Assembly (NCBI GenBank): GCA_950295325.1
Contig: OX485803.1
Coordinates: 24,058,001-24,122,000 of the forward strand
Source of the DNA: Polytrichum commune
Lineage: Eukaryota > Streptophyta > Polytrichopsida > Polytrichales > Polytrichaceae
Length of the DNA stretch: 64,000 nt
Direction of reading: 5' to 3'
Part shown: positions 4,046 through 57,792 of the stretch, one piece after another
Position numbering within the stretch: position 1 is the stretch's first letter
Layout: each line of letters begins with the position of its first letter
Notes under the pieces: generated by a model
What the model was told of the DNA's origin: nothing
The model's database searches: none
Seen by the model: only the letters and a program-made list of their open reading frames with translations
Position numbers and translations under genes: made by a program

Positions 4046-4754
4046 GTCTATCCCAATATCTAGGAGTGGGTGGGCCATAGTACAAATTGACGCAACAAGT
4101 TGAAACGGTTTTTGAAGAATGTATTTGAGGAAGATTATGTAGCGTTTTTGCAAATTCATGCGGTACGGTGGCTTTCTCGAGGTAACGTCATGACCCGCTC
4201 ACTACAGTGCATGCCATCGTTATTGGAATTATTCAGAGATGAAGAGCCGCATTGATATGAGATCATGTGCGCTTTTGAATCACATTTTTACTTGAACTTG
4301 CTTGTAGATATTTTACAAGAGTTGAATAAATTGAATATCAAATTTCCAAATGATATGGTTGATATCACAACTATAAGTTCAACTATTGATATCACTATTT
4401 CTATTTTATCACATCATTGTTTAATCCGGGAATGGACCTATGTTTGGTCGTACAAGAAAGAATTTGGAAAATTTCTTGAGGGAATCCGCAAAAAATCTTC
4501 AGTTGAAAACAATACAAAAGATCGTATTATTCATACATTGATGGGACCAATGAACCACAACAATGCATATTATTGGGTGCATCTTATGTGTAAAGAGTTG
4601 ATCATGCTTTGAATGATCGTTTCCCAGAGCTTCTAGTATTCAATGCAACCAAACTTTTTAGCCCTCGTAATTATCCAAGTGATGATAGTGACCGAATCAC
4701 AAATACCGAATTGTGGCTCGAAAGGATATTGTTGAAATTTCAATACACTGAAGA
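4046..4754 (+). pseudogene. hAT-type transposase pseudogene, front part (split from its C-terminus by a 15.7-kb insertion)
   Basis: Translating about 4140-4754 gives a VRWLSRG motif, then a stretch with LLVDILQELNKLN and FPNDMVDIT, then LNDRFPEL and FNATKLFSP. The last blocks match the transposase fragment of the intact-ended hAT element at 22.2 kb (LNDRFPDL, FNAARLFSP). This is the pattern of hAT-related ZMYM/ZNF862-like transposases. A stop after EEPH (about 4256) and a frameshift near 4610 show decay. The frame reads through LKFQYTEE at 4754 and is then cut by the inverted end of the large element; it resumes in the same frame at 20460. The N-terminal zinc finger and the hAT's own left terminus are not identified. 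Confidence 0.75.
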
Positions 4755-4820
4755 GGGTGGATGCATGGTTGAGTGGCTCACTTTTTGTGTCACACCCTAT
4801 TTTACAGTGTACCCCCGTGC
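4755..4820 (+). repeat. Left terminal inverted repeat of the large element
   Basis: The outer 26 bases match the right end (20430-20455) in inverted orientation with one mismatch (GGGTGG versus GGGTAG). The next 35-40 bases share only blocks such as ACCCTATTTTA and TACCC. The same terminal block recurs at 15736-15805. Confidence 0.75.
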
Positions 4821-5370
4821 ATTGCAAGCCACGTTGCATACAATTGATAGAAGCTATGGATGTGAGATTTGGGATACACAATGGTAACTTGAATAGGTAG
4901 ATGACCACATATTCCTTTACATGAAATTCTTCTTCAATTAAGGGTGATGGACTTTTGAAAATACAATATGGACTGTGGTCAACAGGTTTTGGTTTAGGAA
5001 TTTTGGCGTAAACGTCTAGAATTTTTGGGCATTTTACTAGGAGTGATTATGTATGTTATGTGATCCACTATGAGGTCCATAGTAGTGATGTTTTTTTCCA
5101 CATTATGTGTAGAAATACAGTTGGTATGGACTCTTAAGTAGGCTAAATGATGACGTTTTTTTGGAAGTCCATACTTGGAGCAAAAATAATCGTTTTTCAT
5201 TATTTTTTTTCGGGAAACTACTAATGTACAATATCTTCAGGTGGGCTTCTTGTCAAAAATCCCGCTTTTACTTGCTATACTACAGTTATGGAAGCATCGT
5301 TTTCGGGTCCCACCGACTGTGGGAGTGGATGTGGATGAGTTTAGTTGTAGGGTGGAGTGCACAGTGACTG

Positions 5371-5425
5371 GTGCCACGTGCCACGTGGACTACAACCCTC
5401 TGTTTTAGGGTTTAGGGACTGAAAA
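5371..5425 (+). promoter_or_regulatory. Paired G-boxes and a telo-box upstream of the transposase-like gene
   Basis: Two CACGTG cores sit one base apart (5375-5380 and 5382-5387), followed near 5403 by TTTTAGGGTTTAGGG, a plant telo-box. G-boxes bind bZIP/bHLH factors, and telo-boxes are common near transcription starts of plant housekeeping genes. They lie about 115-165 bp upstream of the first ATG of the transposase-like gene, a promoter-like position. Function is inference. Confidence 0.4.
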
Positions 5426-5538
5426 CGTTCCGGAGCAGTTTTGCGTTGCTCGTTACAGCTCGCATGTCTCTTGTTCAAACCTGCAGGTGCTCGTCATGTG
5501 CATGAAGAGTGAGGTTTAAGGTTCAGCTTGAGTGACGC

Positions 5539-8500
5539 TTGCACGCCGAAATGGGTAGTGCGAGAGCGAGAGATAGGAGAGCAGGTATTCGGAGAGAGGG
5601 CCCTGTGGAGAGGGCTAGACTGGATGTTGCGCAAGAGCGGGCGAGGGAGCGCCAACGCGAATCACGGCGTCGGAGGAGAGCAAATGCTGCGAACTCCGTG
5701 CGTGTCAACGTGGACGCAGGATCGTGGTCAGAGGGTGATGACGCCTATGCTGATGGCGTCAACCGCAGATTGGTGCGCCAGGACGTTCGTGCAATCTTGA
5801 GCTGCGTTCAAAGGACTTTGAGAGGAAGAGGGCGCTTGCTTCCACACAAGCAGGCAGTAATGCAGTCCGTGTGGAACAATAAGTTGACGAGGGATCTCCT
5901 GCCACTTCGGTCACGAAGGGTTTGCAGTGAAACAGATGCGTGAGAGACAATTGTTTCCAGTTTGCTGCAATCCCTGTCGGAGGTGAAGACTTCGAAGACA
6001 AAGGCACATTTAGCTACCAAACATGCTATCCTCACAGCCGCTGTGACGAATCCACAGCGAGTCTCTGCCCGACAGACAGCTCGCCTGCTTGGGGTTCATC
6101 CCCGCAATGTAGCGATGGCCACACAGAGGCGAGCGACCATGGTCAGTTCCGTGCATATGGAGTGGACTTTGTCCGTCAGGAAGGTAAGGAGCGATGCGAC
6201 ATCTCTGATGGTGAAAGACATTGTCACTGCGTGGTGGGCTGCAGAGACACGGCCAAGCCCGAATCGCAAGGAGGTTGTAAGGAAGTGGGTTGCTCCAAAA
6301 ACATACGTTCAACACCATGCTCAATATTTGTTGGAATCTCTGGTGGGCGCTCTCACATCTATGTCATATGTCGTCTTGCTTTTTTTTTTGTGTAATGAGG
6401 GTCTCCGAATTTCGTGCTGGTTTAGGGTTCCTACCGATTCCAGGGTCGTAGGGCTACACCTAGATCTGTGCCTGTTTAGGGTATTCTCGTGTCATTTGAA
6501 GCCATGAGTGTGCAATCTGGCTATGGACCTACCTATCACTTAAGTTGTAGAAATTTGCAATTTCTGTGCTAGGATATGAAGGGTTTAGGGTTTCGGTGGA
6601 TCGGTGAAAGGTGACAGTGCGTTCCTCCATTGGCTTCAGTCTTGTGGCTATCTGCCTGATTTGATGTGATGAGCGTTTTAGGGGTCACAGATGTTCTTAG
6701 GATTTCAGGTTTTCCTTGCGACATTGAATGCAGTGGGCTTTAATTCGAATCTTGGATTTTAGGGTGATATTCTGGGTTATATTGAGCATGCTGGTTTTCT
6801 CTTCCAACTGATTCTAGGGACCAAGGAGTACACCTAGATCTGTGCATGTTTGGGGTACTAGCTTGTCATTTGAAGCCATGAGTGTGCAATCTGGCTACTT
6901 CTCTATAAAACGCATACCGGTACTGTGCATATGGGATCCCATCAGTTTCGTTGTGGTTTAGGGACGGCATTGCAACTTCTGGACTCTGTGGAACTTTTCA
7001 CGCATGGGTGGGAGTTCAGGGTGATCCGCTTGGGTCTTCATAAGGAAATATTGGAGTTTATTTACTTCTCCTCCCATTGTATGTACTACGGTGGATATGC
7101 TACAGGGACCCCATATAGAGTATGGGAGGGAATTGTCAATTTATGGAATGTTTACATATGGGCATTTGCTAAATTGACATCGATGGGATTTCTCACCGTT
7201 CCTTTGGAGTGTATGCAGTCGAGTATTGAATATGTGTCTCTGATGGAGACGTTATATGCATTGTGTGGGGGTATATGGAGACGTTATAAGCATTGTGTGG
7301 GAGTATATGGACTTCCTATTCATCAGTATATGGAAGCAAGCCAGTGTAATTGCAAACCCTATAGACAGTCACCCAGGGTGAGGACCATTGTTTGAGGGTC
7401 ATGGATGTTCTTGAAGTTCTTGCAGGAAATATGTGCACGTGTGGACTGCACAGGACCTCTATGGAGATCTACAGGCACTTTTAAGCCCAGAACTTTTGGT
7501 GAATGTCTTAATAGTGTATTCCTGTGACATATGGCGTCCTATATGCGCTTCGGTGAGTAAAGTATTGAATATGTGTGACTACTCGAGACGTTATATGCAG
7601 TGTGTGGGAGTATATGGACTTCCACATGAGTATATGGAAGTAGCGTAGTGTAATTGTACAATCTGTAGACAGTCACCCATGGTGAGGACTAGGGTTTGAG
7701 GGTCATGGATTTTTAGGGAGTTATTGCATGAAATATATGAGGGTGTGGACTGTACAACACCTCTATGGAGTTCTACAGGAACTTGTAAAGGACTAACGTT
7801 TGCTGAATGTCTTGTTTGTGTATTCCTGTGACAGATGGCGTTCTATATGCGCTTCCGTGAGGCCCATCCCGATGTAATTGTCGGTAAGCGTGTTTTTGAT
7901 TCCTTGCAACCATATTGGGTGAAAAATTTGCATGACCGAAATGTGTGTTGTTGTATATACCACGTAGAAATGGAGGAATTGCTATCTGCTTTTACTCAAC
8001 TGAGGACAAAATCAGGTATACACAACAAAGTAGATTGTGCTTGTCAATGTGAGGTATGTCTCAGTGAATCAAATGTGGGGCAATGTGTTGCGGGAGTGTT
8101 TGTGTATCCTGGTCTGACAGCCATTTCAGATGCAGTGTTGTGCCCAAAACCTCCTAATTCGGCGTGGCATGCAAAGGATTGTTTGTTTGGTGAATGTATG
8201 TGCTGCGGTGTGGACATTCTGCCCATGTGTCCTACCGAAGAGGATGGAATCTCTCCTATAACTGTGCACTGGAAGCATTACGAGATGCAGTCTATCACTA
8301 CGAGGAAAGGTCTACAACGAAAGAAATTGCAGTTGGTTTACAAAGACACAACATCGCGTGAGTTAATCAACTACCTCAAGCCAAAACTCCAATTTTTTGT
8401 GCGTCATAGTTTTGTGGCGAAGTGGGAGGATGAACAATTTAGGACGTGCTTGAGGACCTCCCCCGCTGACACAATGGTGTCCGTCATTGACTATGCTGAA

Positions 8501-9730
8501 AATTATTCTTTTGAGGTACAAAATGAAGTCCAGTCCATGCACTGGCATAGCTACCAAATTAGTATCCTTGTACACATAGCATATATCCGAAATCCTCACC
8601 CAGATCCACATGATGAGAGCACACGTAATACCACGACCTACCATTTCTACATAAGTAATGATATGAAACATGATAGCTATTTTGTGCAACACTGCCTCAT
8701 GTTGCATTGGGAAAGCGTTCTTCAGGGGGGTTTCATACCCAAACATCACTGGATATGGAGCGATGGCTGTGCAAATCAGTTTAAGAGTCGAGTCCCGTGG
8801 TACTTTGTAGCTCGGTATCCAGAGATTACTGGTGGTTGCACGTGCATGTGGTCCTTTTTCGGAACAGGACATGGGAAAGGACCGCACGATGGAGCAGGTG
8901 CTGTCCTGAAACGGTACATTCGAACTGCCCAATTGGATATAAATGGCCCGAAGTTACAGTGCGCTGAAGATGTTGTCGGTTACTTGAGGAAAGAGTTGAG
9001 TGGCCGCCCAAAAACTGTCTATGGCGATAGGAGGCCTGTGAATAGAACATTTTGGCATGTTCTGGAAGGAGATGTTGACAGGGAACACGAGTACGATTGT
9101 GAGCCCATACCCCGGTGCAGAAATCTGCACTCTATTCGGTCCGTCGGCAGCATGGAGGTTGGTAAGTTGTTGAAGCGCCATTTGGCATGTTTTTGTTTCT
9201 CATGTATTGAAGGGAATTGGGAGGAGTGTGAGAATAAAGCTTGGGCTGGGGACTGGGAATTGGAGGTCTTAGTGCCATTGAATGCTGCTTATGTTCGGAA
9301 TGTCCAGTTGAATGAATTTTCGGTGGAAGATTGGCATCATGTTGGTGTAAATGGCACATATTTTGCTTCAATAATCGAAGTGGGTGATAACTTTGCTATT
9401 GCAGCTTCCCCTGATAATGAAGAAAATGTGGATTTTTATGTTCTTGTATGCACTAGGAAAGCTTACACTTGTAAGACAGCTTTTGTTTGCAAGTGGGGTG
9501 AGGAATTCGAACCTGGAGATCAGGTTCTTGAGGGACTCTACTACCATAAGTATGGTTTAGGCGCTGATACGTATGTCCTCTTGAGAAAGTCACATAGGGC
9601 ACACATTTTGGCAGATCATGTTTGTGCAGTCAAATTTCCGATGTCAATGTGTGATCACCGTGTGTCTGGTAATGACCCCGTGTACAAGTTGCAGAGGAAA
9701 GTGGAAGACACCATTTTGGAGCAGGCGTGA
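5539..9730 (+). pseudogene. Transposase-like gene with HTH and DDE-like motifs, two main exons, one premature stop
   Basis: Exon 1 (5539-6342) encodes an arginine-rich N-terminus, then a helix-turn-helix-like stretch (SARQTARLLGVHPRN, near codon 175) and a TRPSPNRK block. A phase-0 donor (CTG|GTGGGC) and the acceptor GACAG at 7834 join it to a 631-codon exon 2 (7835-9730, stop TGA). Exon 2 has a Cys/His cluster (VCCCIYHVE, CACQCEVC, CMCCG) and the motifs WSDGCANQFKS (about codon 307) and HGKGPHDGAGA (about 346), which look like metal-binding aspartates of a DDE-type nuclease. I recall HGKG...DG...K motifs from uncharacterised transposase-like proteins of plants and animals but cannot name the superfamily. 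One in-frame TGA at 5941-5943 interrupts exon 1, with clearly coding sequence on both sides. It is the best candidate for the mobilising enzyme of the large element. Confidence 0.6.
7200..7860 (+). repeat. Tandem duplication of about 304 bp across the intron/exon 2 boundary
   Basis: The segment holding GAGACGTTAT, GTGTGGGAGTATATGGACTT and TCCTGTGACA, then the first codons of exon 2, is present twice. The upstream copy reaches ATGGCGTCCTATATGCGCTT at 7531 and the downstream copy the real exon start ATGGCGTTCTATATGCGCTT at 7835. In the upstream copy the splice acceptor AG has become AT (GACAT), so only the downstream site can work. Confidence 0.75.
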
Positions 9731-10079
9731 AGGGTTTAGGGTATTCTGGGTTTTCTTGCAGGTAAAACCTAAGTTCCACAGTGGAGGGGGTTGTCAAGTT
9801 CTGGATTCCTATTTGGGAGACGATTACGATGACCCACTATGAAGGTGAGAATTTTTATTGAGACCCTGGAGAGCATGATCATTTAAATGCACTAATCATG
9901 TTTAAAGTATGGTTTCAAGCTGGAATCTCAGAACGCCTCTATCCTCTGGTTCCATCTGCGTTTGGTTTACAAGCTAAAATCCGAGTATGCGGAACCACGG
10001 TTGTTACGTATGCAGGCAATTGTGTCCGTGAATACGTAGAAAAGAATCTCACCAAGCATTGAATGCATGATTGGTTACA
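9731..10079 (+). other. Non-coding stretch between the transposase-like gene and the RPL21 fragment
   Basis: It begins with telo-box-like AGGGTTTAGGG directly after the TGA stop, and near 9760 holds a TTCTTGCAG acceptor-like motif. The last bases (GATTGGTTACAG) look like a genuine 3' splice site for the RPL21 exon that follows. The upstream RPL21 exons are not here. Confidence 0.45.
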
Positions 10080-10320
10080 GGTCGGAAACAGGATCATCCA
10101 GAACCGACTTCATGTGCGCATCGAGCACGTGCAGCCGTCAAGATGCAGGGAAGAGTTTTTGGAGCGTCGCAAGAGCAACGACATCAAGAAGGCTGAAAAA
10201 AAGGCCAGGAGCGAAACCGTGGACCTGAAGAGACAGCCTGCAGGTCCCAAGGGTGGATTTGTGTTGGACTCTTCCACATTGGAGACTGTGACCCCCATTC
10301 CTTACGATGTCGTACATGGG
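10080..10320 (+). pseudogene. RPL21: Ribosomal protein L21e (60S) gene fragment, penultimate/last exon only
   Basis: After an intron-like acceptor, the frame reads [20 protein letters not shown], continues [10 protein letters not shown], then [11 protein letters not shown] and [13 protein letters not shown]. This is the conserved C-terminal half of eukaryotic eL21 (the family has [22 protein letters not shown] and TPIPYDVV at the same positions). Only about 80 of about 160 residues are present. The upstream exons are missing and the normal C-terminus after YDVV is replaced by unrelated sequence that stays open until 10578. Position at what should be an exon border suggests capture of a genomic, intron-containing copy rather than a retrocopy. 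It cannot make a functional ribosomal protein. Confidence 0.85.
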
Positions 10321-10747
10321 CTACATTCAAACATGTACTATTTCATTGATGAATACAGAGTTTATTCATGGACTAGGCTTCATTTTGGGTGTGATGTACA
10401 TTTTTTAGCGCGTGGCTTTGGTGCTCTCATCCCGAGTGGTTGTGTTACAACATTGAAGGAACCCCAAACTGTCACGGCAGTGAACCTTCTGACTCGAATT
10501 GAATGCAATGACGGTTGGTTTATGGATAAGCACGGAGTGTATTGGGTACTGGGAGGATACTGTTGGGTATCAAGGTGAAGATCATGCTTGACTGGGAAGA
10601 CACCATCCCTGGGTCTAATATAAACCAAAACACATCAAAGACGACGACCTTATCCACATTCATCCACACTTATTCATCCAAATGCCAGGTGCGCTCCAGC
10701 CTGTTCGCCCCCGCCACCATCGCTCGCAAACACCGGTGCGCTCCACC

Positions 10748-10939
10748 CTGTTATTGCCTCAAACTTCCATCGGCTAGACGCCGATAGTCCCTCTAAGAAG
10801 TTGGCCGCGAAGGGGATCCTTCGCGTAACTAGTTAGCAGGCTGAGGTCTCGTTCGTTAACGGAATTAACCAGACAAATCACTCCACCAACTAAGAACGGC
10901 CATGCACCACCACCCATAGAATCAAGAAAGAGCTCTCAA

Positions 10940-10978
<39 letters not shown>

Positions 10979-11002
10979 CCGTGTTGAGTCAAATTAAGCC
11001 GC

Positions 11003-11060
<58 letters not shown>

Positions 11061-11063
11061 TGG
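10748..11063 (-). pseudogene. Fragment of nuclear 18S rRNA gene (about 315 bp)
   Basis: On the minus strand this reads the universal 18S segment GGAATTGACGGAAGGGCACC, followed by the GGAGTGGAGCCTGCGGCTTA block, the TTGACTCAACACGGGGAAAC block, and on to GAGGCAATAACAGG. Both ends stop abruptly: before GGTCGCAAGG on one side and after CAATAACAGG on the other, where normal 18S would continue TCTGTGATGCCC. The variable loop (GGATCCCCTTCGCGGCC, TATCGGCGTCTAGCCGATGG) is of the non-flowering plant type as I know it. It is an isolated fragment within the large element, not a working rRNA gene. Confidence 0.9.
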
Positions 11064-11698
11064 AGGTGTTAAAAAAATGCCAGGTTGAGAAATTGAATGA
11101 GTCAGGTCGAAGCTCTGTCTTTGCTGTTTTTGCACTCGTAATAGTTTCCTGGATTCTTGAACCTCAGATGGTTATTTCTCAAACTCAACCGGTTTGTCTC
11201 TAAGTAGCAGCCGGATCTCTGTTCATATCAGAGCTAGCTAAACACAATCGGACGAGATACTAGTGTTTGCAAGTCCAACCGGTTACATGTAGACATCCTC
11301 TGGTTTTCATGTATTGAATTGGGGTATATTCTATAGATTCTTCTAAAACGACCGGTACTTTCTTGAAGTCTTTGATCATGTTCATTTTGGTGGTCATGGT
11401 GATTATAGGTACAACAGTTATTAGCATACCTGACTTGAAGCTGAGGTATTATGGTATTTAGGGTTTGGAATTGTTGTACAGGAGTAAGGGTTTGTGGAGA
11501 TTGTCTCCAAGTGTTCATCATTCAAGCTAGCGCAGGTGAGCTGATGTTTCTTGCACAGACTTGTATTGATCGAAGCCCTTCCTACTCAGGTTAATCCTGG
11601 TTTCAATGCTTGCATCTTTTAGGACCGGATTAATGGGTTTTTTTAATGTTGTAGCATCTTCAATGTTTAATGGATGATTATCGGGGGATATTGGATAG
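11064..11698 (+). other. Presumed intron/5' region of the following gene, no exon resolved
   Basis: No confident exon is seen between the 18S fragment and 11699. The stretch contains several splice-like motifs, for example TTGTAG near 11653 and GATAG at 11698. The missing 5' exons of the next gene may lie here in unrecognised form, or may have been left behind when the segment was acquired. Confidence 0.35.
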
Positions 11699-13095
11699 GT
11701 GGAAATGGAAGGTGTTGAGTGCTTCAACATTGCCTCAAATTTGCCTGTTGCTGTCGCCCAAGAGCTGCAATGGTACATCCTTGTTAAAAAGTAGTTTTTA
11801 TGGCAAGGCTGCTTGCCTGTAAATATGCACTGGGCAAAATCATGTTGCGTGGTAACCTTTGAACAGTACGTGGCTCTTAGTTGGTTACTTTTCCGATTAG
11901 CTCACTTCTCCTTGTATATGAAACACGTGATTAGCATGAGATGATTAGTGCATCCAATTCAGGGCTATAGTCATTTTCCTCAAAATTCTCGGAGCTGATA
12001 TAAATATCTTATTGATTATCAGAGGGAAGATTTCTTAGATGCACACTTAACCACACATCACTCATATATAGGCGTCCAATTAAGATAAGTAACCAATTTA
12101 GGCCTTCTTACCTTAACTAGCAAGTGGGTATGCCCCAAAATGCTAATAATCTTCATACCATAATTATGTCAACTGATTCTTCCTTTGGGTGTGACCAGGG
12201 TGTGGGATGCCATAAGGAGCTCTACTCAGTCACAGGCTCTCATTATATTATATCGGACCACTTGTATACTGCAAACAGGTTTAGCTGCTGCCTCAGAGGA
12301 TGGATCTGCAGTCTCTGTCAATGCCACTAAATTCCTACATGGACCACTTTGTAAAGGTCTTAAAAGCTCCGGGAAACGTAAGGACTAAACTCGTGACCGA
12401 GAAATTATGCTGTGTCATTGCTTTTACTTACTAACTCTTTAGTAGGACATAACAACTCCTTGGTGACGAAGGTTGTTGGTTTGTGCATTGCAGAAACCTA
12501 TCTTGCAAATCTTGCACTTTATCCTGGGCGATTCGAGTTGTCATTTCTGCCATCTAATGCACAGGTCTGGTATTCAGGATTGTCCTATTCCTTTCAAGTT
12601 TCTAAATGTGCAATATCATATCACAATAGTTTTTGTTTCCCCAGTTTGTGAGACGACTGAAGGTTCTCTGCTAATACCTTTCTTGTGTTCCTTAAGGTTG
12701 CAAATTCTTACATGACTTACTTGAATGTGTTTCTGGTTTGAGGATGTGAGCAGGCAGTCGTTCTACAGCCTTTGGGTGATGATGGTGTGTTGGTGGTTGC
12801 AAGTGACACAATTCGTGGGTTCACATCTAGAGACCAGGTACTTTGTCATCCTTTGAAATGAAGTTTCTTTTTGCGCAGGCCAATTTGTTGTGAGGAGACA
12901 TTTTGAGTTGAAATGTTTGCACGGGAACCATGTAGACGTAGTCAAAATAGAAACGTCTTATTTGAATCTCAAATTCTTATGTCAACTGAACTTGTGCAGG
13001 CATGGTTAGGTACTATTGCAGAGAAATTAGATACCTCTTTAGAAGAATGGGTTGATACCTCTACATCAAATCTGGAGGGTCAAGTTTCTCATTAG
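11699..13095 (+). CDS. Spliced plant gene, 3' half; possible CCB2/CCB4-like chloroplast cofactor-assembly protein
   Basis: Five exons join with consistent phases: 11699-11772, 12199-12377, 12494-12564, 12754-12837 and 13000-13095. All four introns are GT-AG, and the product ends at TAG. Joined landmarks are AVAQELQWVWDAIRSSTQ, ALIILYR, TYLANLALYPGRFELSFLPS, then AVVLQPLGDDGVLVVASD, TIRGF and AWLGTIAEKLDTSLEEW. No premature stop occurs in about 167 codons, so this part looks intact. The pattern reminds me of plastid-targeted cytochrome b6f heme-attachment factors of the CCB2/CCB4 group, which end in a QPLG...SDT.RGF...DQ.W...A.KLD region, but this identification is from memory and weak. No start codon or transit peptide was found. 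The gene lies inside the large transposable element, so it is either captured or a host gene enclosed by it. Confidence 0.6.
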
Positions 13096-13424
13096 ATTTC
13101 TTGCACTAGTAGAAGAAATTCAGGACTTGCCACATGTGCTTTTCATGAGTACAAAAATCACTGGCTGAAAAATTGGCTCATTCATCAAACTTTTGGAAAT
13201 AGAGGCACCCAAAAGTAGTTGTTTGAATAAGGCTGGTGTTAGCATAAGATGTATCTACCTTATCTTCTGCACTTGTAGGTAGCAAAAGAATGAGAGCATT
13301 AATTGATGGTTTTCCTAATTGCATACAGAGTCTATTACATGAAGACAGAGGATGAAGGCACTGACTACCTTGTTGACCACTCCATTATCTTGTACAATAA
13401 CAACTCATTCTTGTGTGTACTTGA

Positions 13425-14112
13425 GTGAAATATTTGAATGACATTTTGCATATAGAGTTCATACTTTGGGGGAGGTCATAATTCTTAAATCTTGCAACGA
13501 CGTATGTTGTGCACAGTGTCCTTGTGGTAAAGACTTGGCCTCTCTTAAAGTGTGAAGTTTATGATGCTTGTCTCTTAGAAATTGCAACCATGACAATAGA
13601 GTTAATATGTATATTGTATTAGGCATTAGATACGTAGGTTAAATTGGCATTAACTTCATTTGTGCTAATGGTTTGACATTAATGGTCTTATTCTTTTGTA
13701 GGTGAAGAAAAAGAGTATTTATCAAGTCCTAGCGTGAAAAGCTTTCAGAACTACTTTTACTAGAAGTTGAGCTTGCAAACTCACGGTTTTCTTTGGAAGT
13801 TGATTTTACTAGTGTTCATATCGGTGAGTGCTCATTTTTTCAAGGCCAAAGTGTATGTTGAGGTGGATGACGACCAATTTGTTATAAATATGTATGTGAA
13901 TATGTGTGAAATATTTGAATGACATTCTGCATATAGAGTTTATACTTTGGGGGAGGTCATAATTCTTAAATCTTGCAACGATGTGTGCTATGCACAGTGT
14001 CCTTGTGGTAAAGACTTGGCCTCTCTTAAAGTGTGAAGTTTATGGTGCTAGTCTCTTAGAAATTGCAACCATGACAATAGAGTGAATATGTATATTGTGT
14101 TAGGCATTAGAT
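13425..14112 (+). repeat. Two direct copies of a 207-bp segment, 481 bp apart
   Basis: 13425-13631 and 13906-14112 run in parallel from GTGAAATATTTGAATGACAT to AGGCATTAGAT with roughly 10 differences. The intervening 274 bp are not repeated. No coding potential is seen. The second copy ends just upstream of the oxygenase-like pseudogene. Confidence 0.85.
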
Positions 14113-14245
14113 GGAGGGTGCCATTGTCGCCGTCCTCTTGCATTTGGTCATGAATATGACAATGTATTCCAATAAGGAATCAACATTTTATCTATCTGGA
14201 GTTGTAGTTTAGTTCTCTAAATAATGCTCCTGATGATGTCATAGT

Positions 14246-15570
14246 TTGATTTTGCACTTTCAAAACATATATTCTAATAAGTTATTGGTTTTGAATGATT
14301 TAGGATCATTGACAAAAATGAGGATCAAGGTGGCCAAGGCTAATGTAACGTGTGATATATGTCTCATTGAGATCACCAACGAAGCTAAACACATCGAGCG
14401 CCATACCTTGGGTAACAAGCATCAGTGGATGCTTGAGCTGATTTTGAAGAAAGATATTTTAGAATCCTGGAACTTTCAATGGATAAAAAGTAACAATACA
14501 TTTGTGTGTTTAACTTGTTTGGAGCCTATGGACAACAACCTCAGTTTTAAAAGGATTAAGCGACATTTCAAGTCCCAGCATCAACCATTTTCTTCTTTAA
14601 CGGACTATACAGTGGAGATTTTCAAAGTTTTTAGAAAGAATAAATACTATGAATAAAGTGAGTATGATTTTGAGGAAGAGAAGAAAAATTTTAAGACAAT
14701 GGAAGGTCCGGTACGTATGGTGGATGGATTTGAAAATTTATTGGGAGTTTTGAAGTTGAATGTTTTTCCAGTATCTGATCATTCAAGATTTTATGCAATG
14801 GCATCCATTCTTGAGGAGCACGGAAAAAGTACCAACAGAGGTAAATCAAAGGGAGGATCGAGGATGGTCATGTATGGGCAATATGAGAACCATTCATGTG
14901 AATGGTTTATTCATCCCTATGAGAGTTTATATGCTTTGTCAGAGATTTTTATTCATGAAGTATCAAAATGGCTTCAAATTTCATTTCCCGATGTTATGAA
15001 GACTTTGGACAAGAACTTTGAAAATGAAGGTCTTTTGGGAGGAGACGGTCATTTTGGTAACACTCATTTTATTCTATTTTCAGTTACTAGGGATTATTAT
15101 TGTTGTCCTCATGACGATGATACCGACTATGGATATGTGTTTATAGTATGGTTTTTTTCCTGATGGGAAGCTTGAGGTGGAAGAACAACCAAGTTTCTGG
15201 CTCCCAGAATACAAGGTACGGTGTACACCAACAGCGGGAGCAACATTTCTTTTAAATTCAAAGACTATTGTTCATTGTACAACGCGACTAGTTCAAGTTG
15301 GTGTTTTAGGTATTGCTTTGGTACAAAAAAAGTCATTTATGTTACGCTTGAAAAAAAATCTGGATAATCCTTCAAGCAAGATTGGACTGGCGTATTTAAA
15401 AGCCAAGAGAACTTATGAAGCTAGACGGGTAAGGAAATTCATTTATGTTGTTAATTTTTGAAATTGTTTAAACTTGTTATTTCTTTTATGATGAATTTTA
15501 ATAGTTTTCTTCATTGTGATGCTTTCAGAAGCATTCTCAGGGAACTGGAGTAGCAAAAGGTTTCTACTAG
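14246..15570 (+). pseudogene. C2H2-type zinc-finger plus 2-oxoglutarate/Fe(II)-oxygenase-like gene, broken
   Basis: The N-terminal part has two zinc-finger-like patterns, CDICLIEI...H...H (about codon 36) and CLTCLEP...H....H (about 92). The C-terminal part looks like a double-stranded beta-helix oxygenase: an HDD metal-ligand motif (YYCCPHDDD), a strand-rich GYVFIVWFF, and a distal His in GATFLLNSKTIVHCTTR. The final exon is recovered by a clean GT-AG intron (15429-15528), ending YEARRKHSQGTGVAKGFY. Two lesions are visible: an in-frame TAA at 14654-14656 and a one-base excess in a seven-T run at 15152-15158. The distal half resembles TET/JBP-type or other nucleic-acid-modifying oxygenases in general layout, but that is an inference and an ordinary hydroxylase is possible. 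It lies in the large transposable element. Confidence 0.45.
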
Positions 15571-15735
15571 TAGATATTTATGTAATTAGTAATAGAGTTG
15601 TTTGTTTATCCATTTCTTTAACTTTGTAATTGTTCTTACTTTTGTATGAACATTGAATCTCATAATCTTAGTTTCGGGACCCAACACTTAGCAACAAGAG
15701 TGCTGAAACTTTGAGTGTCTTCGGTCTCGATTTTC
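15571..15735 (+). other. 3' flank of the oxygenase-like pseudogene
   Basis: Non-coding T-rich sequence between the TAG stop and the internal terminal repeat. It is a plausible 3' UTR; no clear polyadenylation signal could be assigned. Confidence 0.35.
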
Positions 15736-15805
15736 AGGGGTATGGACTTTAAAAAAAAAAGGTATGGACCGGTATCGGTCCACTCAACCATGCATCCACC
15801 CTAGG
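15736..15805 (+). repeat. Internal copy of the large element's right terminal sequence
   Basis: It reads GGGGTATGGACTTT, a run of A, GGTATGGACCGGTATCGG, then CCACTCAACCATGCATCCACCC. The right end at 20390-20455 has the same order and orientation (GGGTATGGAGTT, A run, GGGTATGGTCCGGTATTGAG, then CCACTCAACCATGCATCTACCC). The sequence beyond it (TAGGGG...) does not start with AAGA, so this copy is not paired with the left end by target duplication. Confidence 0.75.
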
Positions 15806-16759
15806 GGTTTTGAGTCCCATCTACCTCTCTGTTGGTGAGGCTTCTCCCTCTCTTTGGCCCAGGATTTTCGAACCATAATTCTCTGCATTGAAGGGCATTT
15901 GACACTACTCCCATCGCTTAGACTTCAGCACCTGGGGTTGCTTGAATTCCCATGTGTTCCTGCGCATTCACTCATCTTCAAGCCTGCTGTGCCGAAAACA
16001 TAGCCAAATGTTCCGAGGCGACTGAATTTCAAGCAGCCATTGTTTCAAAAGCGATGAACTTTATGTGGAAAACCAGTTCTTTACCCAATACTCAAACCAA
16101 AAAACAGCTTTTTAGAATGAATTCGACTTGCCACTACCAATGCCATCTAATTACCAGCCAATTCACAGGGGCTACAGGTCCACTCTCTGATCATCCCAGG
16201 CATGGATAATATGTTCTATATGTTATCATAAGACCATGGCAGCTTCTAAAAACAAAACAATGTCACAGCATAGGGTAAATGCCATCATCTTAGTTTTAAA
16301 TTCCACTTAGATGTACCATGACATTCTCATACTGTACTTGAATTTGAGACATTTATAATAAAACAGGGCCTGCAATTCTATGCATAGAAATTCCACTTGG
16401 GCACCTGAGATGCAAGGGGAGACTTTCAAAGAATACTTGAGGACAATCGCAAAAGAAGAAATTCAAAGAATACCTGAGGACACTCAAGAACGTTCTATTT
16501 CCTTGTAGGTTCAAATCTAATTTCATATTTCAAGGTTCATAAGATCAAGGACCTTGATTCAAGAATAAAACCAAGTGACAAGCTCTCAGTGCTTGACAGC
16601 TGACTCTTACCTAGCTATATCTTGGAATAAAGCCCTTTCCCATCACCCTAGAGTCAACTATCACAAAACCGTGAAGATAATGCAATCTTCACTGCAACCT
16701 CCTGCCCAACCACAGACAAGATTCCCATAGGATATGCAAAGACCCCTAAACCTGAATCC
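15806..16759. other. No gene recognised
   Basis: About 950 bp between the internal terminal repeat and the minus-strand gene. A short plus frame at 15952-16209 has no recognisable domain. The part next to 16760 is likely the 3' UTR of the minus-strand gene. Confidence 0.4.
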
Positions 16760-17532
16760 TTAAGGCCTCTGCCGCTGGGACGATCTGGTCCTCGTGGAAA
16801 TAGGTTTTCGATTAGCAAGGGTCAATTTCTTCCCCTTGTTCACAGGTGAATTTGTGCGGTCATCTTCGTCACTCTCACCTCTCAGGAACCGATCAATGTG
16901 GGAGTCCTTCTGCCTAAAACATAGCTGGGACAGGGTTTCCCTGTCTTGAAAATTGTCCTCCGAACCCCCGCCATCGTCGGTCTCGTCCGTTGAGAATTCC
17001 ACAAAATCACGAGGGATTTGTGATTGAGTACCCCGCTTGGAACTGCCCAGATTCGACTTCCTCTTTTGAGATACGTCTGCCTCTGGTAAGTTGATGCGAA
17101 CCTCCTTCTCCTGTGGCTGAACCCGTTGGTGGCCCTTTTTTCTCTTCAACCGCCCATTGACTTCCTCGTCACCGCAGGAGACCCTCTCTTCCCACTGCAC
17201 GTCGTTTCTGGATTTTGTGCGCCTCTCTTGAAACTGCAACTCATCGGAAGTGGCGTCAGCCTCGGTCTCGGGTATGATGGAATCATATTGCGCAACGGGT
17301 GCCTGCATTTTTGGAACTGCGAGCTCACGAGTGGCAGGAGGTGCCATTCGGCTGGAATGTGGCTGCGGTTTCGGTGGGGGGGTGACCTTGTTGGCCACAT
17401 CGTCATCTTGGCGGGGCATCCTGCCGGCCAAGTCTTGAAAGCTTCCAACGGAGGGGCTTGGAGTACGTGAAGGAGCTGGTTCCCGCACCTTATCAACCCC
17501 AGAAATCGTTCGGGAGGTTTGTCCAAGGTCTG
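16760..17532 (-). CDS. Low-complexity charged protein, probably the last exon of the minus-strand gene
   Basis: The minus frame from an acceptor-like CTGTGTGCAG (ending at 17533) to the stop at 16760 encodes about 257 residues rich in Arg, Lys, Glu, Asp, Ser and Pro, with no known domain. Recognisable stretches are KPQPHSSRMAPP, GRLKRKKGHQR and a basic tail TRTRSSQRQRP that could act as a nuclear localisation signal. It carries no start codon of its own near the acceptor. It follows the coiled-coil/RING-like frame in the same orientation about 1.15 kb downstream, so I read it as the final exon of that gene. The connecting donor could not be fixed. Confidence 0.4.
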
Positions 17533-18684
17533 CACACAGACAACGATTAGGGAACCAGAGATGATGACAGGGTTTAGCAATATAGGAATTGCGATCCCAT
17601 AAACCCCGGTGACAAACCCTTCCATGACCACACCCATTAGTAGTCAGTACACATCCACTCCCTGGAGTTCAAAGTCCATGTAAGCCACAATATATCAATA
17701 TCACATCGAACTCTACATACAAGTCAATGGTTATCCACCCAGGATATATAGAAACCCATTCCCCTTCTTTGACATCCAGGACTGTCCCAACACAGTCAAA
17801 ATTTCTATATGATGCCTCCATAAGACTCTTCCAAAAGTTATAGACACTGAAGGGCGTCCCGTGTATTCCATAATCAACTCCAACAATCACTAAAAAGCCA
17901 GTTTGAACACTGCACTGTCCACAAACCCTATAGTACATGGCAAACCTCTGCACTGGTATACTACGATGCCAAAAATTTCAAATGAACCCTAAACTTCACA
18001 TTTGATGTCAGTGGACATCCACATGAGAGGGACTGAAGCCCATTCCCACCTAACCCTAAACACTGAAGACCATTGGAAGTACATACAACATCATATTGGC
18101 TCAATACAATCAATACCACAACAAACACCTTCTGAACTATGCCAGAATTTTCAAAATAACCCCTAACTCCTCTTTTTCTCTGTGTGGACCTGGACATGAG
18201 AGGGATTAAAGCCCATTTCCACCACACCCTAACACTGAAACCCATGAACCCTACATACTACTAAATGTTGGCTTCTTCCAATCAATACAAACAATGCAGG
18301 GTCCATAAAACGCCTCATGTATTCTTAAATTCCCCACAAGTACAACGTCCAACCCACAATCAGAAGAGAGAAGTGGACTTTGCTCACGACTAACCCATGT
18401 GTGCAGCTACAAAGTCCAGGAGTCCAGGAGTGCAAGCGAAGCAAGTGCCAACCTCCAATTTCCACAACCATGGAACACGCAGGTGTGGTTATGTTTCCCC
18501 CCCAAAAAAAGTACACAGCATATACCTAAACCAGCATGATGTCCCCAAACCATAACGATGTACCAACAGCAGCATGATAAACTCAAAATGGACACAAAAT
18601 GAGGGGAGTGAGGGGATTACGTGTAAGAGGTGCTCTCTCCCAAGCTGCAGCCATGACGACTCCATCCTTCCCCACCACGGGCTT
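17533..18684 (-). other. Presumed intron with diverged direct repeats
   Basis: This stretch has no coding frame of note. It holds at least two diverged copies of a roughly 180-bp segment, near 17960-18080 and 18140-18250 (shared blocks such as ACATGAGAGGGA, AAGCCCATT and ACCCTAA). In this place such sequence is most simply an intron between the two minus-strand exons. Confidence 0.4.
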
Positions 18685-20157
18685 CTAAATCCCTGTGCAG
18701 ATCCACCAATCCTTGTGCATCTCCATGGCACAGTCTTTGTGGATGCATTTGGTGGACTCACTGAAATGCGTGAGTGCACACCATGAATGGTAAGCGTGGC
18801 GGCAGGAGGCTAAGCGACAATCCCACGCCGGTTGAAAGCCCCGCAAACAAAATGGGCACACACCCACCTGGATTGTGTGAGTGGCGATAGGCTCCTGACC
18901 CCAGTCGTTGTGGATAGCCGGCAACGGCACAGGTGTTGTGGTGGGACGTTCATAGCCAGCCCGCATGCCTCGCAGCTGGGATTGGAGTGCAAGTCGGTGA
19001 CGGCTCCACAAGAACTGCCTCGTCTTAGCGTTGCTCCAGGCTTCCTCGGCAACGGTCAATTTCGCCAACTCCACTATCTCTGCCTGCCCACCACCGCAAG
19101 TCTCCTCAAACATGGCCAGAATTGATTTTTGTGCATCCACTCGGAGCTGGAGGCCTTCAAGATCTCGGTGTATGAAGACCAGACCACTGTCTTCTGGCCT
19201 CACCGAGACCAACTTAGCCCTCAAGGCATCCCGCTCTGCCTCCAACTCCGACAGCTTTGATTGAGCGTCGGAAATGAGCTTGCGGCCATACTCCACTTGG
19301 CTGGAGACCTTATGCAAGGTCATTCTGGCCTCTTCTTTTTCGGCGAAGAGAACCTGCACGTACCCATCCAAGCCCAGGGACTCCCGATCCAACGTCTCCA
19401 AGCACAGACTCCATTCTCCGATAGACATAGCAATTTTTCCCAAAAAAGATATTTTGTGACCTCGTTGCGGTATGATGCCTGCACAATTGATCCCGGAGCC
19501 GGGCACCTGATCTCGCGAGCAATTCTCTTTGCCCAGCTGACACTCCTTCTCCGAATCCACCTCTCCCTTCAGAGAAATCCCCTTGGACTTTGCGGCGTCC
19601 TCTTCCTCTGCCCGCAACTTCTTCAACTGATCCCGACAGGTCCACTCTGCGAAAAGGGCCCAGTTAGTTTCTTTTTTCTTCACAATCTCGTACGCAAACC
19701 CTTTTGCCTCGGAGACGTTCACCATGCGGGTGTTGGGCACCACTGTTTTTTGGTGGCAAATCATCCACATTGTCTCCACCTTACGCACAAACTCCTCGTC
19801 CATTGTAGCGTATCGATAGCCATTGCCATTCTGCCGCGGCCCAAACAAGCTTTCCACATCCGCCTCCTCTAAATGGTGCCCAATCTTAATCTGTTTCGGG
19901 GTGATTCCTCTGTTGCACAAGTTGTATTTCTCTGCAAACCAATCCCTTGTCACTACTGACTTTCGATCCCACAGGATCTCAGGCTGGCAAGCATACAGTG
20001 GATCCACCCAGCTGCTCTTCTTCGCACCTCGTTTTGGACAGAGTAGCCTCTCCTCCAGCTCCTCCCGCGAGTCCTCCGAGTCGGACATGGCGTACACCTT
20101 CACGTCACCGTAACAGCCTAAGAGGACGTCTCCGTAATCGACTCTCGAATGCGACAA
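18685..20157 (-). CDS. Coiled-coil protein with C-terminal RING-like Cys/His cluster
   Basis: A 490-codon frame. After an acidic N-terminus (MSDSEDSREELEERLL at about codon 24, a plausible alternative start) comes an unrecognised region, a charged coiled-coil segment (KLSELEAERDALRAKL near 310), and near the C-terminus a zinc-binding pattern: CPFC, then C, CRH, H, C and a final C..KDC pair (about codons 430-475). This resembles a RING-variant finger of ubiquitin ligases, but spacing is atypical. I do not recognise the full-length protein. The frame is open without stops, unlike most neighbours. It lies just inside the right end of the large element and may be an accessory gene of it. Confidence is for a real coding region, not for function. 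Confidence 0.5.
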   Translation of the reverse strand: MSHSRVDYGDVLLGCYGDVKVYAMSDSEDSREELEERLLCPKRGAKKSSWVDPLYACQPEILWDRKSVVTRDWFAEKYNLCNRGITPKQIKIGHHLEEADVESLFGPRQNGNGYRYATMDEEFVRKVETMWMICHQKTVVPNTRMVNVSEAKGFAYEIVKKKETNWALFAEWTCRDQLKKLRAEEEDAAKSKGISLKGEVDSEKECQLGKENCSRDQVPGSGINCAGIIPQRGHKISFLGKIAMSIGEWSLCLETLDRESLGLDGYVQVLFAEKEEARMTLHKVSSQVEYGRKLISDAQSKLSELEAERDALRAKLVSVRPEDSGLVFIHRDLEGLQLRVDAQKSILAMFEETCGGGQAEIVELAKLTVAEEAWSNAKTRQFLWSRHRLALQSQLRGMRAGYERPTTTPVPLPAIHNDWGQEPIATHTIQVGVCPFCLRGFQPAWDCRLASCRHAYHSWCALTHFSESTKCIHKDCAMEMHKDWWICTGI

Positions 20158-20389
20158 AACGTGACAGCGTACAGCTCCGCGTGCGACAGGCCTCCGGGAA
20201 GAGAGGACAACACATGCGACAAAGGGAGACCATGCTCTTCAAACCCTACTCATTCAGGGCCACACGATCGGGTTCCATCTAACGGCTGTGACACATGCCC
20301 GCCAACGAGTTTGAAACTCCATCATGGTCGGATGAATGACGGAGCAGATTTGGATGACGGTTCTTTTACACGTGTGGTCATACAATTTG

Positions 20390-20455
20390 AAGGGTATGGA
20401 GTTAAAAAAAACAGGGTATGGTCCGGTATTGAGCCACTCAACCATGCATCTACCC
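20390..20455 (-). repeat. Right terminal inverted repeat of the large element
   Basis: The outermost 26 bases match the left end at 4755 in inverted orientation with one mismatch. The inner part contains two GGGTATGG blocks around an eight-A run. AAGA (20456-20459) follows directly, as it precedes the left end. Confidence 0.8.
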
Positions 20456-20830
20456 AAGAAGAAAGTGACATGTGTAAGGGAGAACTCTTGGCATTTATGA
20501 AACACTTCGACGTGAGTGTGAGAAAAAAACAATATTTGAGGCTTGGCGCATATGTGGTAGCAATTTGGAATGGTACACAAATTGGCCTAAACTTATGTAA
20601 CTTTGGCAGAAAAAATATACTCATTCCATCAAGTATAGCTATTTCTAAGAGAGGATTTTTCCAAACAAGATGCAATCAAAAGCCACTTGCGCAATAGGTT
20701 GAACTTGAAGACCCTTGATGTTCTTATGCAGGTTTATGTTCGTGGACTTGAAGTAAATGCAATGGATTGGGCTACCATCTTCAACATTTGGAGAAACATA
20801 TGAGACCAAAGGATACTTACGCTCTACTAA
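20456..20830 (+). pseudogene. hAT-type transposase pseudogene, C-terminal part
   Basis: The first codons (ESDMCKGELLAFMKHF) continue the frame interrupted at 4754. Further on, after a frameshift near 20670, the sequence encodes KQDAIKSHLRNRLNLKTLDVLMQV and then MDWATIFNIWRN. This is the hAT dimerisation region and matches KQNWVKS..R..LNLDTLDALMRV and MDWNDIFDTWK of the hAT element at 22.6 kb. It ends at a TGA near 20800. Only non-coding sequence follows, and the original hAT right terminus was not located. Confidence 0.75.
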
Positions 20831-21854: not shown

Positions 21855-22937
21855 CAGTGCTCAAAATTGAAGTCTTCAGTGCCCTTCAAATGGGTTTTGG
21901 GACTTCAAAAAATACCTCAAGGAAAACAACCCTTCAAAACATAATCCTTATGTCTAAGTGCTCCCTTCACTTGAAGTGTTGGATAAATAGTACCCTTCAA
22001 GTACTGTTCATCATCTCAAGTAGCAGTTTAACTCCGGCTGTCTAACTTTGGGCTCCAGATCTCAAATCCAGATGGGAATTATATGTTGATAGGTTTGGTT
22101 GTGAGAAAGTGCATACTTTGCACTATGACTCTATGCCCGGGTGTGATGTAGGGGGCTCGTTGGAGGATTGCATCACCCTTGGTAGACTATACGTCCAAAA
22201 GGTTATTGACTCACTAAATGATCGCTTCCCCGACTTGCCCATTTTTAATGCAGCCAGGCTTTTCAGCCCAAAACACTATCCCATGGATGCATTGGATCGA
22301 GGCACTTTAACTGAGCAATGGTTGAACCGGTTGGTGACACATTTCAAGTGGAGCTATGTTCTTGTTGATCAAGCCAATGCGGAGTTTCTCGAATTTGTGG
22401 AGATGTTATCTTCAGCTTGTCAACACCGAAGTATGCATGAAGATTGGTTTTTTTGTGGCCGTGACCGAGAGTTTAAGATCAATTGGCCAACCCTAATGTC
22501 GCTATGGCAAGCCATACTTCTGATCCCTACTAGCACTGTTGTTTGTGAGCGTGGTTTTTCAAAGCAGAATTGGGTTAAGAGCGAAAGGAGAACATGCCTA
22601 AACCTTGACACACTTGATGCATTGATGAGGGTTAGCTTAAACAGTTTGGGAGTTGAATTCATGGATTGGAATGACATTTTTGACACTTGGAAAGCCGCTA
22701 CAGTAACCAACAAGCGTAGGGCATTGTCACTTCAAGAGGTGGAGTTAGATAGTTGATTCTCCATTATTTCATTGTACTAGAAGCATGTACCATGCAAATC
22801 ATGCATAATTTTAATATAAGTTTAATATTTAATTTTCCATTGACGTCCTAGATTTAGATATGCCCTTCAATTGCAATGCTGAAATTTCAGAGCCCTTCAA
22901 AATGAAATTCATATGAGGGCTTCAATTTTGAGCACTG
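21855..22937 (+). mobile_element. hAT transposon, internally deleted, with perfect ends
   Basis: The 18-bp inverted ends are perfect: CAGTGCTCAAAATTGAAG at 21855-21872 and its reverse complement at 22920-22937. The octamer TGTGCGGT stands directly outside both (21847-21854, 22938-22945), the 8-bp duplication that defines hAT insertions. At 1083 bp the element keeps only the C-terminal third of its transposase, so it is non-autonomous but probably still recognisable by a full-length relative. Perfect ends and duplication suggest a fairly recent insertion. Confidence 0.92.
22109..22756 (+). pseudogene. C-terminal fragment of hAT transposase
   Basis: A 215-codon open frame includes LNDRFPDLPIFNAARLFSP, the WPTLMSLWQAILLIPTS segment, CERGFSKQNWVKS and LNLDTLDALMRVSL. 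Together these form the hAT C-terminal dimerisation domain. The catalytic N-terminal and central regions and the zinc finger are absent, so no active transposase can be made. Despite this, the retained frame has no internal stop. It is closely related to the split hAT pseudogene at 4.2/20.5 kb. Confidence 0.8.
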
Positions 22938-25075: not shown

Positions 25076-28000
25076 TTAGACGATATAAAGATCACCTCTA
25101 AAATCCTCCTTGAGTGTTTCCTTGGATTTTGTCTTATTCAAAATTTGAACTGCCAAATCCTTCCCGTATCTTCCTTGAATATAAACACGAAGAGAAATCA
25201 ACTCCTCCAAGGCACAAAGGTTGGACAATCCGAGACAAAACTCCTCAAAAGCCTCATAATTGCTCATGTCAAGTTTCTTGAGACTTGTCAAGCCACTAGA
25301 TCCTTCCCGTAAAGTCCTCAAAGATCGACGTTTCGAGAAATACAACTCATCCCATGCAAAGAGGTTGGTCTGTTCTAGAAAAAACACCTCCAAAGCCTCA
25401 CATTCCCACACCTTAAGTTCCCCAAGACTTGACAAGCCATCAACTTCTTCTAGTATCTCCCTCGAAGACAAACATTATGAGAAATTTAATTCCTCCAACA
25501 TAGAGAGGTTAGTCGATCCGAGAGGAAACTACTCCAAAAGCCTCACTTTCCCACATCTTAAGTTACTTGAGACTTGTTAAGCCACCAGAATCTTCCGGAA
25601 ACTTCCTCGAAGACCGACATCTCGAGAAAGCCAACTCCTCCAAAGCACAAAGGTTGGTCAATCCCAAAGCAAACTCTGCCCAAACCTTTGAGCATTCCCA
25701 CATATAAAGTTTCTTGAGACTTGCTAAACCACCAAATCCTTCTGGTATCTTTTTCAAAGACAAACAATGCGATATATTCAACTCCTCCAAGGCAAAGAGG
25801 TTGGTCAATCCGAGAGGCAACTCTTCCAAAGCCTCACATTCACTCATGTCAAGTTTTTTGAGACTCACCAAGCCACCAAATCCCTCTGGTATCTTCCTCA
25901 AAGACCCACATTTTGAAAACGTCAATTCCTCCAATCTGTAGAGGTTGCACAATCCTTCATGTATCTTTTCCAAATCAGTGCATCTTGTGATAGTCAATGA
26001 TTCCAAGGTTGAGAATTTCACAACCTCATTGAGTAATCCTTCTATGTTTTGGCAAGACGAAAAGGTTATTGCCCTCAAGGGCATCACCTTCAAATATTCA
26101 CATGATAGTGATCCTGAGAAGTCACAATCAAACACCTCTAATACGCGCAAGTTTTGGAAATTAGATTGGGAACGATTCCAAAACTTCTCGATAAATTCAT
26201 TTTTCTCCATTGAAGAAGGAATTTTCGAGGTTGAAAAGTGCATCCTCAAGCATATTAGATTAGGTGATTCTTTGACAATAGATGAAAGTAGGTCAATATT
26301 GTTACAACATTGGACATTTAATATACGTAGCTCCTCCATATGTTGGAAGTCAACATCTACTTCATACTTAGATTTGCGTTGCAACTCTGTGAATGAAAGG
26401 CATTGGACAAGTTCTGTGCCCTACACACATAAACAAAGGCACGTAAGTTTGCTTTCTTTCCATTTCAAATGACAAAACGAATATACAACAACAATACATA
26501 CAACTAGGATACAACTTATGCTACCTAATACATTTATTACTTAAGGAATTTAATATTGCACATCAGCCTTCACAAAAATTGAATTGCACACCTTTTGTTT
26601 ACAATGATTGGCAAATGCGGGGTAACTTAAATCCCAAAGTCGAGTTCCTGGAAATTTTGTTTCTGTGATCATACGACCCATATCACGCAAATGATTGTGC
26701 ATGTTAAGATGATCCCACTCGTCTACTTTTACCAATGATTTGTTGTGAAGGCTTTCCAAGATTTCTCGGGCATTCCCATCGAACATTCTAAGAAATGTTT
26801 CTTTTGTTGTAAACACATCTTTGCAAAAGAAACAAGCTATGTCTAGAAACATGTTTTTTTCTTCAATAGTTAGCTCATCAAAGCTTATCCTCAATGTCTT
26901 CCAAAGTTTCTCATTTGGACTTCCATCATGTTTCGCCCTCAACAATCTATGTGAGGTTCGCTCCCATATTCTCAATCGTGTCTCCCCTTGCATGCATGTG
27001 CCCATCACCTCCAAACTCAAAGGAAGTCCACAACATGCATTCACAATATTTTCAACCACATGTTCCAAATATGGTAAACATGATTGGTCCGTCCCAAAGG
27101 CACGACTTGAAAATAACTTCATAGGTTGGTCCCCTTCCAAGGTTTGCATGTCTACTTTGCCAACCATGGGTACATGTTGCTTCAAAGAGTTCCAATCACG
27201 AGAACTTGCAATCAATCTCATGCCATCAACATCTTCGAACATGCTATCGTCCAGTAATTCACGTAGTTGACTTTGATTGCTCACATTGTCCACCACGAGG
27301 AGTATTTTGTTTGTTTTTTGAACATGTTTCAATATATCACTTGCTTTCTTCAATGTTTTTGCTTGAGGAGGGGAGTCTTGCATGTCTCTTGACTTGTATT
27401 TTAATGCAAATGTACAAATCTCATTCTTCAAGTCCAATACAAAACACACTACATCAAAGTGGTGGGAGATGTGGTCACTCAAAGCTTTAGCCAATGTTGA
27501 TTTGCCAATTCCTCCCATGCCGATGATTCCTAGTCTACCAACCCTTTGTAGTTTTCTTTCCAATTGGGGCAATTTTCCTTGAACTCCGATCAATATCGAT
27601 GATTCCATCATGTTATCAGCCTTGACCTACAAGAATTTATAGAGTCAGTGATGATCAAATGATCGACCTTAGGAGGTCCACTAACTTCTCCCAATTTAAT
27701 TCAAAGTGTTTTGGCTTGATTCACAATTTCACAATGTACTCACCTCCATATATAGCGGATATGATGATGAGTCAGTACAATTCTCTTGGATGCTTGAAAT
27801 CGATGTTGAATTGTCAAAATGGTGAAGTTGGGACATGAACCATAACCATTGCATGCACTTGAGAAGGACTTGCCAAAAGCTTGATAAAGAGTATGATAAA
27901 AAATCTTGCCAAAAAACACCGGTTGTGTCATTTGTAACTCTTGTAATCTCAAGCGAGCCTTTCAGCATTGCGTTCTTCAATTTTGCAAGCCTTTTGTGAA

Positions 28001-37556: not shown

Positions 37557-37605
<49 letters not shown>

Positions 37606-46767: not shown

Positions 46768-46828
46768 TAATTGGCGACCATCGGGGGATGAATCCAAACA
46801 TCTCTTGCTCCAAGGGTAAGTTGCCTAG

Positions 46829-56257: not shown

Positions 56258-56262
56258 TCAAC

Positions 56263-57747: not shown

Positions 57748-57792
<45 letters not shown>

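Follow-up and report, generated by a model that had tools for sequence, protein, structure and literature searches.

A Sola-like composite transposon with a TET/JBP-like dioxygenase gene among its cargo in the moss Polytrichum commune

A stretch of 64,000 nucleotides from Polytrichum commune (contig OX485803.1, positions 24,058,001 to 24,122,000; hereafter the window) holds a 15.7-kb insert, at 4755-20455, that interrupts a hAT transposase gene. The insert has one left end (L) and two right ends, one internal (R1) and one terminal (R2), and this three-ended layout is found at eight places in the genome, seven of them independent (the eighth is a mirrored copy at C1:24.13M). It is best explained as a cut-and-paste transposon resembling Sola elements in anatomy, one lineage of which became a cargo-bearing composite that carries a dioxygenase gene, whose product may ease silencing of the element. 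We put the probability of this explanation as a whole at about three in four. Positions without a prefix are those in the window; the prefixes C1 to C7 denote genome contigs.

The insertion and its mobile unit

That 4755-20455 is a real insertion, with inverted ends and a target duplication, is confirmed at both junctions. The ends, 26 nt each, are 96% complementary, and AAGA stands directly outside each of them (Table 1), as a sequence-only reading of this DNA had described (25 of 26 bp matching, AAGA on both sides). When the flanks are joined through a single AAGA, an open frame of 132 amino acids (aa) spans the junction, and residues 1-120 of this frame align unbroken to a second hAT copy at 22199-22558 (32.5% identity, E 6e-18). 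The in-frame rejoining of the hAT gene and the continuity of its relative near 22.3 kb, both claimed by that reading, are thus borne out. The hAT copy that was interrupted shows decay of its own, its upstream part lying in a different reading frame.

The three-ended layout also occurs on C2, C3, C4 (three times) and C6, each time with distinct flanks. In six of the seven independent composites the outer 4-bp duplications match, while the flank after R1 is constant: TAGG follows in the eight R1 copies read (R1 of C4:8.19M was left out). The moving unit is therefore L to R2, and the observations support its movement as one piece; the earlier proposal of one mobile unit, possibly a composite, holds in this form, although that reading had overlooked R1. 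It is not a composite of the bacterial type, with two complete elements around the cargo, as the unit has one left end and one transposase gene. Compared over its terminal 73 bp, R1 shows 93% identity with the C1:10.9M right end and 84% with R2.

Two other accounts of the interval have to be considered. The mobile unit might be L to R1 (11 kb), with the R1-R2 segment an accidental neighbor; R1 is indeed a good end, identical to L at 22 of 22 positions, and at the mirrored copy the last four letters of the L flank are TAGG, with which the R1 flank starts. However, it is the R2 flank that varies and matches the 4 bp at L in six of seven composites, whereas the R1 flank is alike in eight copies; ORF2 and ORF3, both also present in base elements, lie in the R1-R2 segment; and among the pairs examined no cargo element ended at R1 with an L-R1 duplication. 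We regard this account as very unlikely. Less credible still is that the interval only looks like one element, having arisen from two separate, unrelated insertions or from a false join in the assembly. The region does have a large inverted duplication, a structure that assemblers at times mishandle, but recurrence of the layout on four contigs, with distinct flanks, argues otherwise.

Table 1. Features of the insert and its borders in the window
Feature	Position	Strand	Remarks
Target duplication AAGA, left copy	4751..4754		directly outside left end
Left terminal inverted repeat (L)	4755..4780	+	26 nt
Transposase exon 1	5944..6342	+	open in window; ends before GT; start not fixed
Transposase exon 2	7835..9727	+	630 codons; begins after CAG; open in window
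Cargo block of three-ended composites	9732..15801		except R1, no blastn match in C1:58.0M or C1:10.9M
RPL21 C-terminal piece, weak	10078..10146	+	Pfam PF01157, E 0.0025, 18.1 bits, cutoff 27
18S rRNA piece	10721..11003	-	Rfam RF01960, 232 bits
Captured DNA	11621..12860		94% to C5:28116032-28117307, outside the elements found; 12860 is the query end
SCO1/SenC-like piece, weak	13321..13395	+	Pfam PF02630, E 0.0087, 16.5 bits, cutoff 22.8
TET/JBP-like dioxygenase gene	14318..15461	+	N-terminal zinc-finger-like part; broken: stop at 14654, frame change near 15150
Internal right end (R1)	15780..15801	-	22/22 against left end, 23/23 with one outside base; then TAGG
ORF3	16763..17668	-	about 300 aa; open in window
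ORF2	18688..20238	-	about 516 aa; RING-like C-terminus; open in window; also in base elements
Right terminal inverted repeat (R2)	20430..20455	-	26 nt; pairs with L
Target duplication AAGA, right copy	20456..20459		directly outside right end

The family across the genome

The genome searched for ends, gene copies and cargo comprised 407.8 Mb in 64 contigs. A 22-bp end motif gave 85 matches (45 + 40) at up to three mismatches, against 6 (2 + 4) for the reversed control. Forty of the 85 had no or one mismatch; elements were paired from these and from three of the other 45, the remaining 42 having been set aside beforehand. The stretch 4755-4855 has 15 matches in the genome, the window copy included. 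Paired ends elsewhere, which had been set as a test beforehand, were found: inverted pairs were located at 16 sites, their members separated by 5.6-51 kb.

A perfect 4-bp target duplication flanks 12 of the 16 two-ended elements: AAGA (window), AAGT (C1:10.9M), ATAA (C1:54.2M), TTGA (C2:62.97M and C4:24.3M), AATA (C4:8.18M), ATTA (C4:18.8M), TAGA (C6:31.5M), CACA (C6:32.7M), TCCT (C5:32.6M), GTGG (C6:20.5M) and TATG (C7:12.7M). As a 4-bp flank match is expected by chance at about 0.0044-0.0046 per element, these are not chance matches. Three of the 12 consist of A and T only and nine have at least three A/T; CACA, TCCT and GTGG are also present. Two further loci are unpaired, C5:36.45M with R2 and R1 and no left end, and C2:41.5M with one right-type end.

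Larger cargo as the reason for sizes up to 51 kb was considered and dropped for the copies read. C1:10.9M has several insertions, including four copies of a repeat, probably a long terminal repeat (LTR), that also makes up the 1-kb insertion in the C3 copy. For the C2 composite (C2:62964576-63000015) larger cargo was rejected because a distant relative is nested about 12.98-24.84 kb into it, with a transposase at 35% and a RING-like ORF at 30%.

The base element and its genes

The base form of the element is about 9.8 kb long and carries a spliced DDD-type transposase gene, with the RING-like ORF2 and ORF3 on the opposite strand, both of them present in base elements. The transposase-like gene noticed from the sequence is thereby substantiated. 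Exon 1 is kept at 75-98% aa identity in five other elements, in two of the five with one stop, and by eye it resembles the N-terminal part of the homologue P0023; exon 2 has 59 homologues. In residue numbers of the 631-aa ORF starting at 7832, D220, D311 and D353 are invariant in an alignment of 32 transposase sequences. An AlphaFold2 model of exon 2 (predicted local distance difference test, pLDDT, 85.8) has an RNase H-like, integrase-like fold over residues 202-404, in which the three aspartates follow strands 214-219, 305-310 and 337-342 (D353 by 11 residues). They are candidates for the DDD catalytic residues. The transposase has no Pfam match at E 0.1 and no sequence match in the PDB. The RING-like gene stands in part: ORF2 is open and its C-terminus is RING-like, but the zf-RING_2 match is weak (E 0.0067; 17.1 bits, below the cutoff of 27.3).

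The base element C1:58.0M (9.8 kb) matches the window at 4756-9731 and 16658-20455, in pieces with gaps, at 85-93%; between them, over 9732-16657, it has no blastn match except the R1 end. C1:10.9M matches in the same pattern at 76-93%. The transposase-ORF3 spacers of C1:58.0M, C1:10.9M and the window share no match beyond their margins, so that this space behaves as a variable bay. The statement leaves out C1:54.2M, whose middle carries its own ORF3 and part of ORF2.

Captured DNA in the cargo block

The insert contains the element's own genes (transposase, RING-like ORF2 and ORF3), scraps captured from the host, and a single enzyme gene that has been amplified. Of the host pieces that had been named from the sequence, the 18S rRNA is clear and RPL21 is weak, at 18.1 bits; the plastid-type identity of the gene at 13321-13395 did not stand, SCO1/SenC being preferred, weakly.

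The genome was searched with 10150-12860, and the best 40 of 4355 candidates were scored, so that the counts are lower bounds. The segment is present at full length and 99-100% at at least five places (window, mirrored copy, C3, C4:18.8M and C4:8.19M), four of them independent, and the dioxygenase gene is found at nine; the cargo does recur between ends. Not every composite retains it in full, as in the C2 composite other sequence replaces about 10180-12853. Among the matches listed, 10747-11060 is 99% identical to C5:52916666, the best of the 18S-like copies, and DNA adjoining the RPL21 piece matches C5:51038143 at 94% (over 10150-10314) and three C3 loci at 80-81%. The matching loci outside the elements are probably the donors of the cargo pieces, and the one at C5:28.1M is probably SCO1.

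The dioxygenase gene

The oxygenase-like gene first seen in the insert is, more closely, a zinc-finger TET/JBP-like gene. The window element has open transposase, ORF2 and ORF3 frames, but its copy of this gene is broken. In the C3 copy the ORFs corresponding to 14237-15458 form a single frame, with two stops. The relatives of the window gene are P0060 (89%, full-length; 22 member sequences), P0061 (80%) and P0062 (46%, covering 45% of the query). Of 23 genome matches, 14 belong to the nine close copies found. Each of the nine lies beside R1 of one of these elements: eight are part of three-ended composites, the mirrored copy among them, and the ninth adjoins R1 in the C5 element that lacks a left end. 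Three places have stop-free copies (C4:8189852, C6:31528319 and C4:18824287); in the other six of the nine the gene is broken. The remaining nine matches, at other loci, are to more distantly related sequences (35-48%).

L072 (C1:28976000-28978400) and L073 (C6:31266600-31268600), both spliced, represent a second family of TET/JBP-like genes and match P0060 at 4.5e-13 and 4.6e-14. L073 also matches PF20515, a Tet-like 2-oxoglutarate (2OG) family, at E 0.0023. The two have 1184 bp in common, 95% identical, between flanks that are unrelated; thus the spliced relative has been duplicated too.

H261, D263 and H315, an HxD...H arrangement, are invariant in P0060-P0062, and the HxD and the H also occur in L072 and L073. 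This would be the metal-binding motif of a dioxygenase. The single PDB match of P0060 spans residues 15-113 only, and a viral fold library gave no useful match.

Weighing the explanation

Several observations weigh against the explanation given at the outset. Four of the 16 elements have no perfect duplication: C1:58.0M (TTCT vs. TCCT), C3:18.0M (GAGG vs. TAGG), C3:27.96M and the mirrored C1:24.13M. The other points concern the enzyme. R319 is invariant in P0060-P0062 and is not kept in L072 and L073, for which reason the 2OG-binding arginine is not assigned to it. No score against PF12851 (Tet_JBP) reaches the gathering cutoff, 34.9: L073 and L072, with their exons joined, score 31.0 and 30.2 bits (E 1.8e-7 and 3.1e-7), P0062 and P0060 19.5 and 18.7 bits (6e-4 and 0.0011), P0061 has no Tet_JBP match, and the three intact genomic copies have none at E 0.5. 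The label is therefore limited to "TET/JBP-like". The structure model of the enzyme, built from 3 sequences, has a pLDDT of 29, too low to judge a double-stranded beta-helix fold by. Finally, the ratio of nonsynonymous to synonymous substitutions (dN/dS) is about 1 between the three open genomic copies, with no present constraint visible; from these sequences, it appears to record decay after insertion.

What the gene does for the element can be read in two ways. The enzyme of this land-plant transposon may counter silencing of the element by acting on the methylated DNA of the element itself. As the transposon type is outside the fungal list, this would be an independent capture of the same counter-defence in plants; we hold this reading tentatively, at a little less than an even chance. 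It is also possible, on odds short of even, that the gene is a hitchhiking host scrap, like RPL21 and 18S, that spread with the composite and has no role in the element. Its neighbors in the block are other pieces of captured host DNA, six of its nine copies are broken, related genes exist elsewhere in the genome, and dN/dS is near 1 among open copies. Against this, the gene is complete, with about 376 codons, unlike the scraps; its frame is open in three independent insertions, and the HxD...H motif is retained by P0060, related over its full length, and by P0062.

Under the transposon explanation, the sequence of events would be as follows. A cut-and-paste element with 4-bp target duplications, Sola-like anatomy and a base form of about 9.8 kb would have acquired, in one lineage, a 6-kb cargo block with the internal R1 between its convergent genes. 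R1 may have arrived with a related element nested in the base element, the two direct 5' halves subsequently recombining into one to give the L-R1-R2 layout. The L-to-R2 unit then entered six or more separate sites, the transposase encoded in the element presumably acting on L and R2. The dioxygenase would oxidise methylcytosine on the element's DNA and thus ease silencing.

Comparison with known systems

KDZ superfamily elements make 8-bp target duplications; here the duplications in matching cases are 4 bp. Sola elements have a 4-bp target duplication and a DDD transposase, some exceed 15 kb, and they are present in the moss Physcomitrella (PMC10741241, PMC9033089). The present element resembles them in the 4-bp duplication, the DDD residues on an RNase H-like fold and size, a comparison of anatomy and description rather than of transposase sequence. 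AT-rich duplications characterize the Sola2 group; those here are so in part, with GTGG and TCCT among them. Sola2-Fanzor chimeras have their 5' parts in common and differ in their 3' parts (PMC3627910). The giant DNA transposons described in Ectocarpus (KDZ, EnSpm and Sola-1, larger than 10 kb) carry extra genes as well as nested insertions that have become fixed among the copies (PMC12477816); that host is a brown alga, and "JBP" occurs in the article twice, both times in the reference list. KolobokP composite-like transposons are reported as mobile units with more than two transposon ends (PMC9587614), as is the L-R1-R2 composite, but as described there they have two long terminal direct repeats and TTAA sites, whereas the composite here has one left and two right ends.

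TET/JBP-type genes are described as borne by fungal DNA transposons; in IS3EU the gene has the transposase on one side and, on the other, a second gene of opposite orientation, and in three fungal families it has the transposase's orientation (PMC12730594). Both features are seen here too. The hosts in that account are fungal, and the words "Sola" and "moss" are absent from its main text as searched. Among the papers listed in our literature searches, no title or opening of an abstract reports a TET/JBP gene in a plant or in a transposon of plants. Removal of methylcytosine in plants is generally attributed to glycosylases, not to TET enzymes.

Neighboring sequence

A large inverted duplication is centered near 47675. 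Its arms, 31349-38382 and 56971-64000, are 99.9% identical, and it spans 31349-64000 of the window and C1:24131894-24149594. The mirrored transposon copy is 99.98% identical to the window element over 16.7 kb. Within 3 bp of its L end the match breaks off and a different flank, with TAGG as its last letters, takes over; a transposase-driven rearrangement there is possible. An LTR-type element occupies 44488-56258; its direct repeats (2.28 kb, 99.9% identical) enclose an open frame of 2086 codons (46832-53089, minus strand). At 25566-28775, minus strand, open frames resemble by eye a kinase and then a nucleotide-binding-site (NBS)-type disease-resistance gene.

Implications

The family illustrates how a large DNA transposon can gain cargo between its genes while still moving. 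If the role proposed for the enzyme is true, the amplification of a TET/JBP-like gene on a plant transposon would carry over to land plants what is described in fungi, transposons that counter methylation, and the copies with open and with broken enzyme genes would provide a direct test of its effect on methylation.
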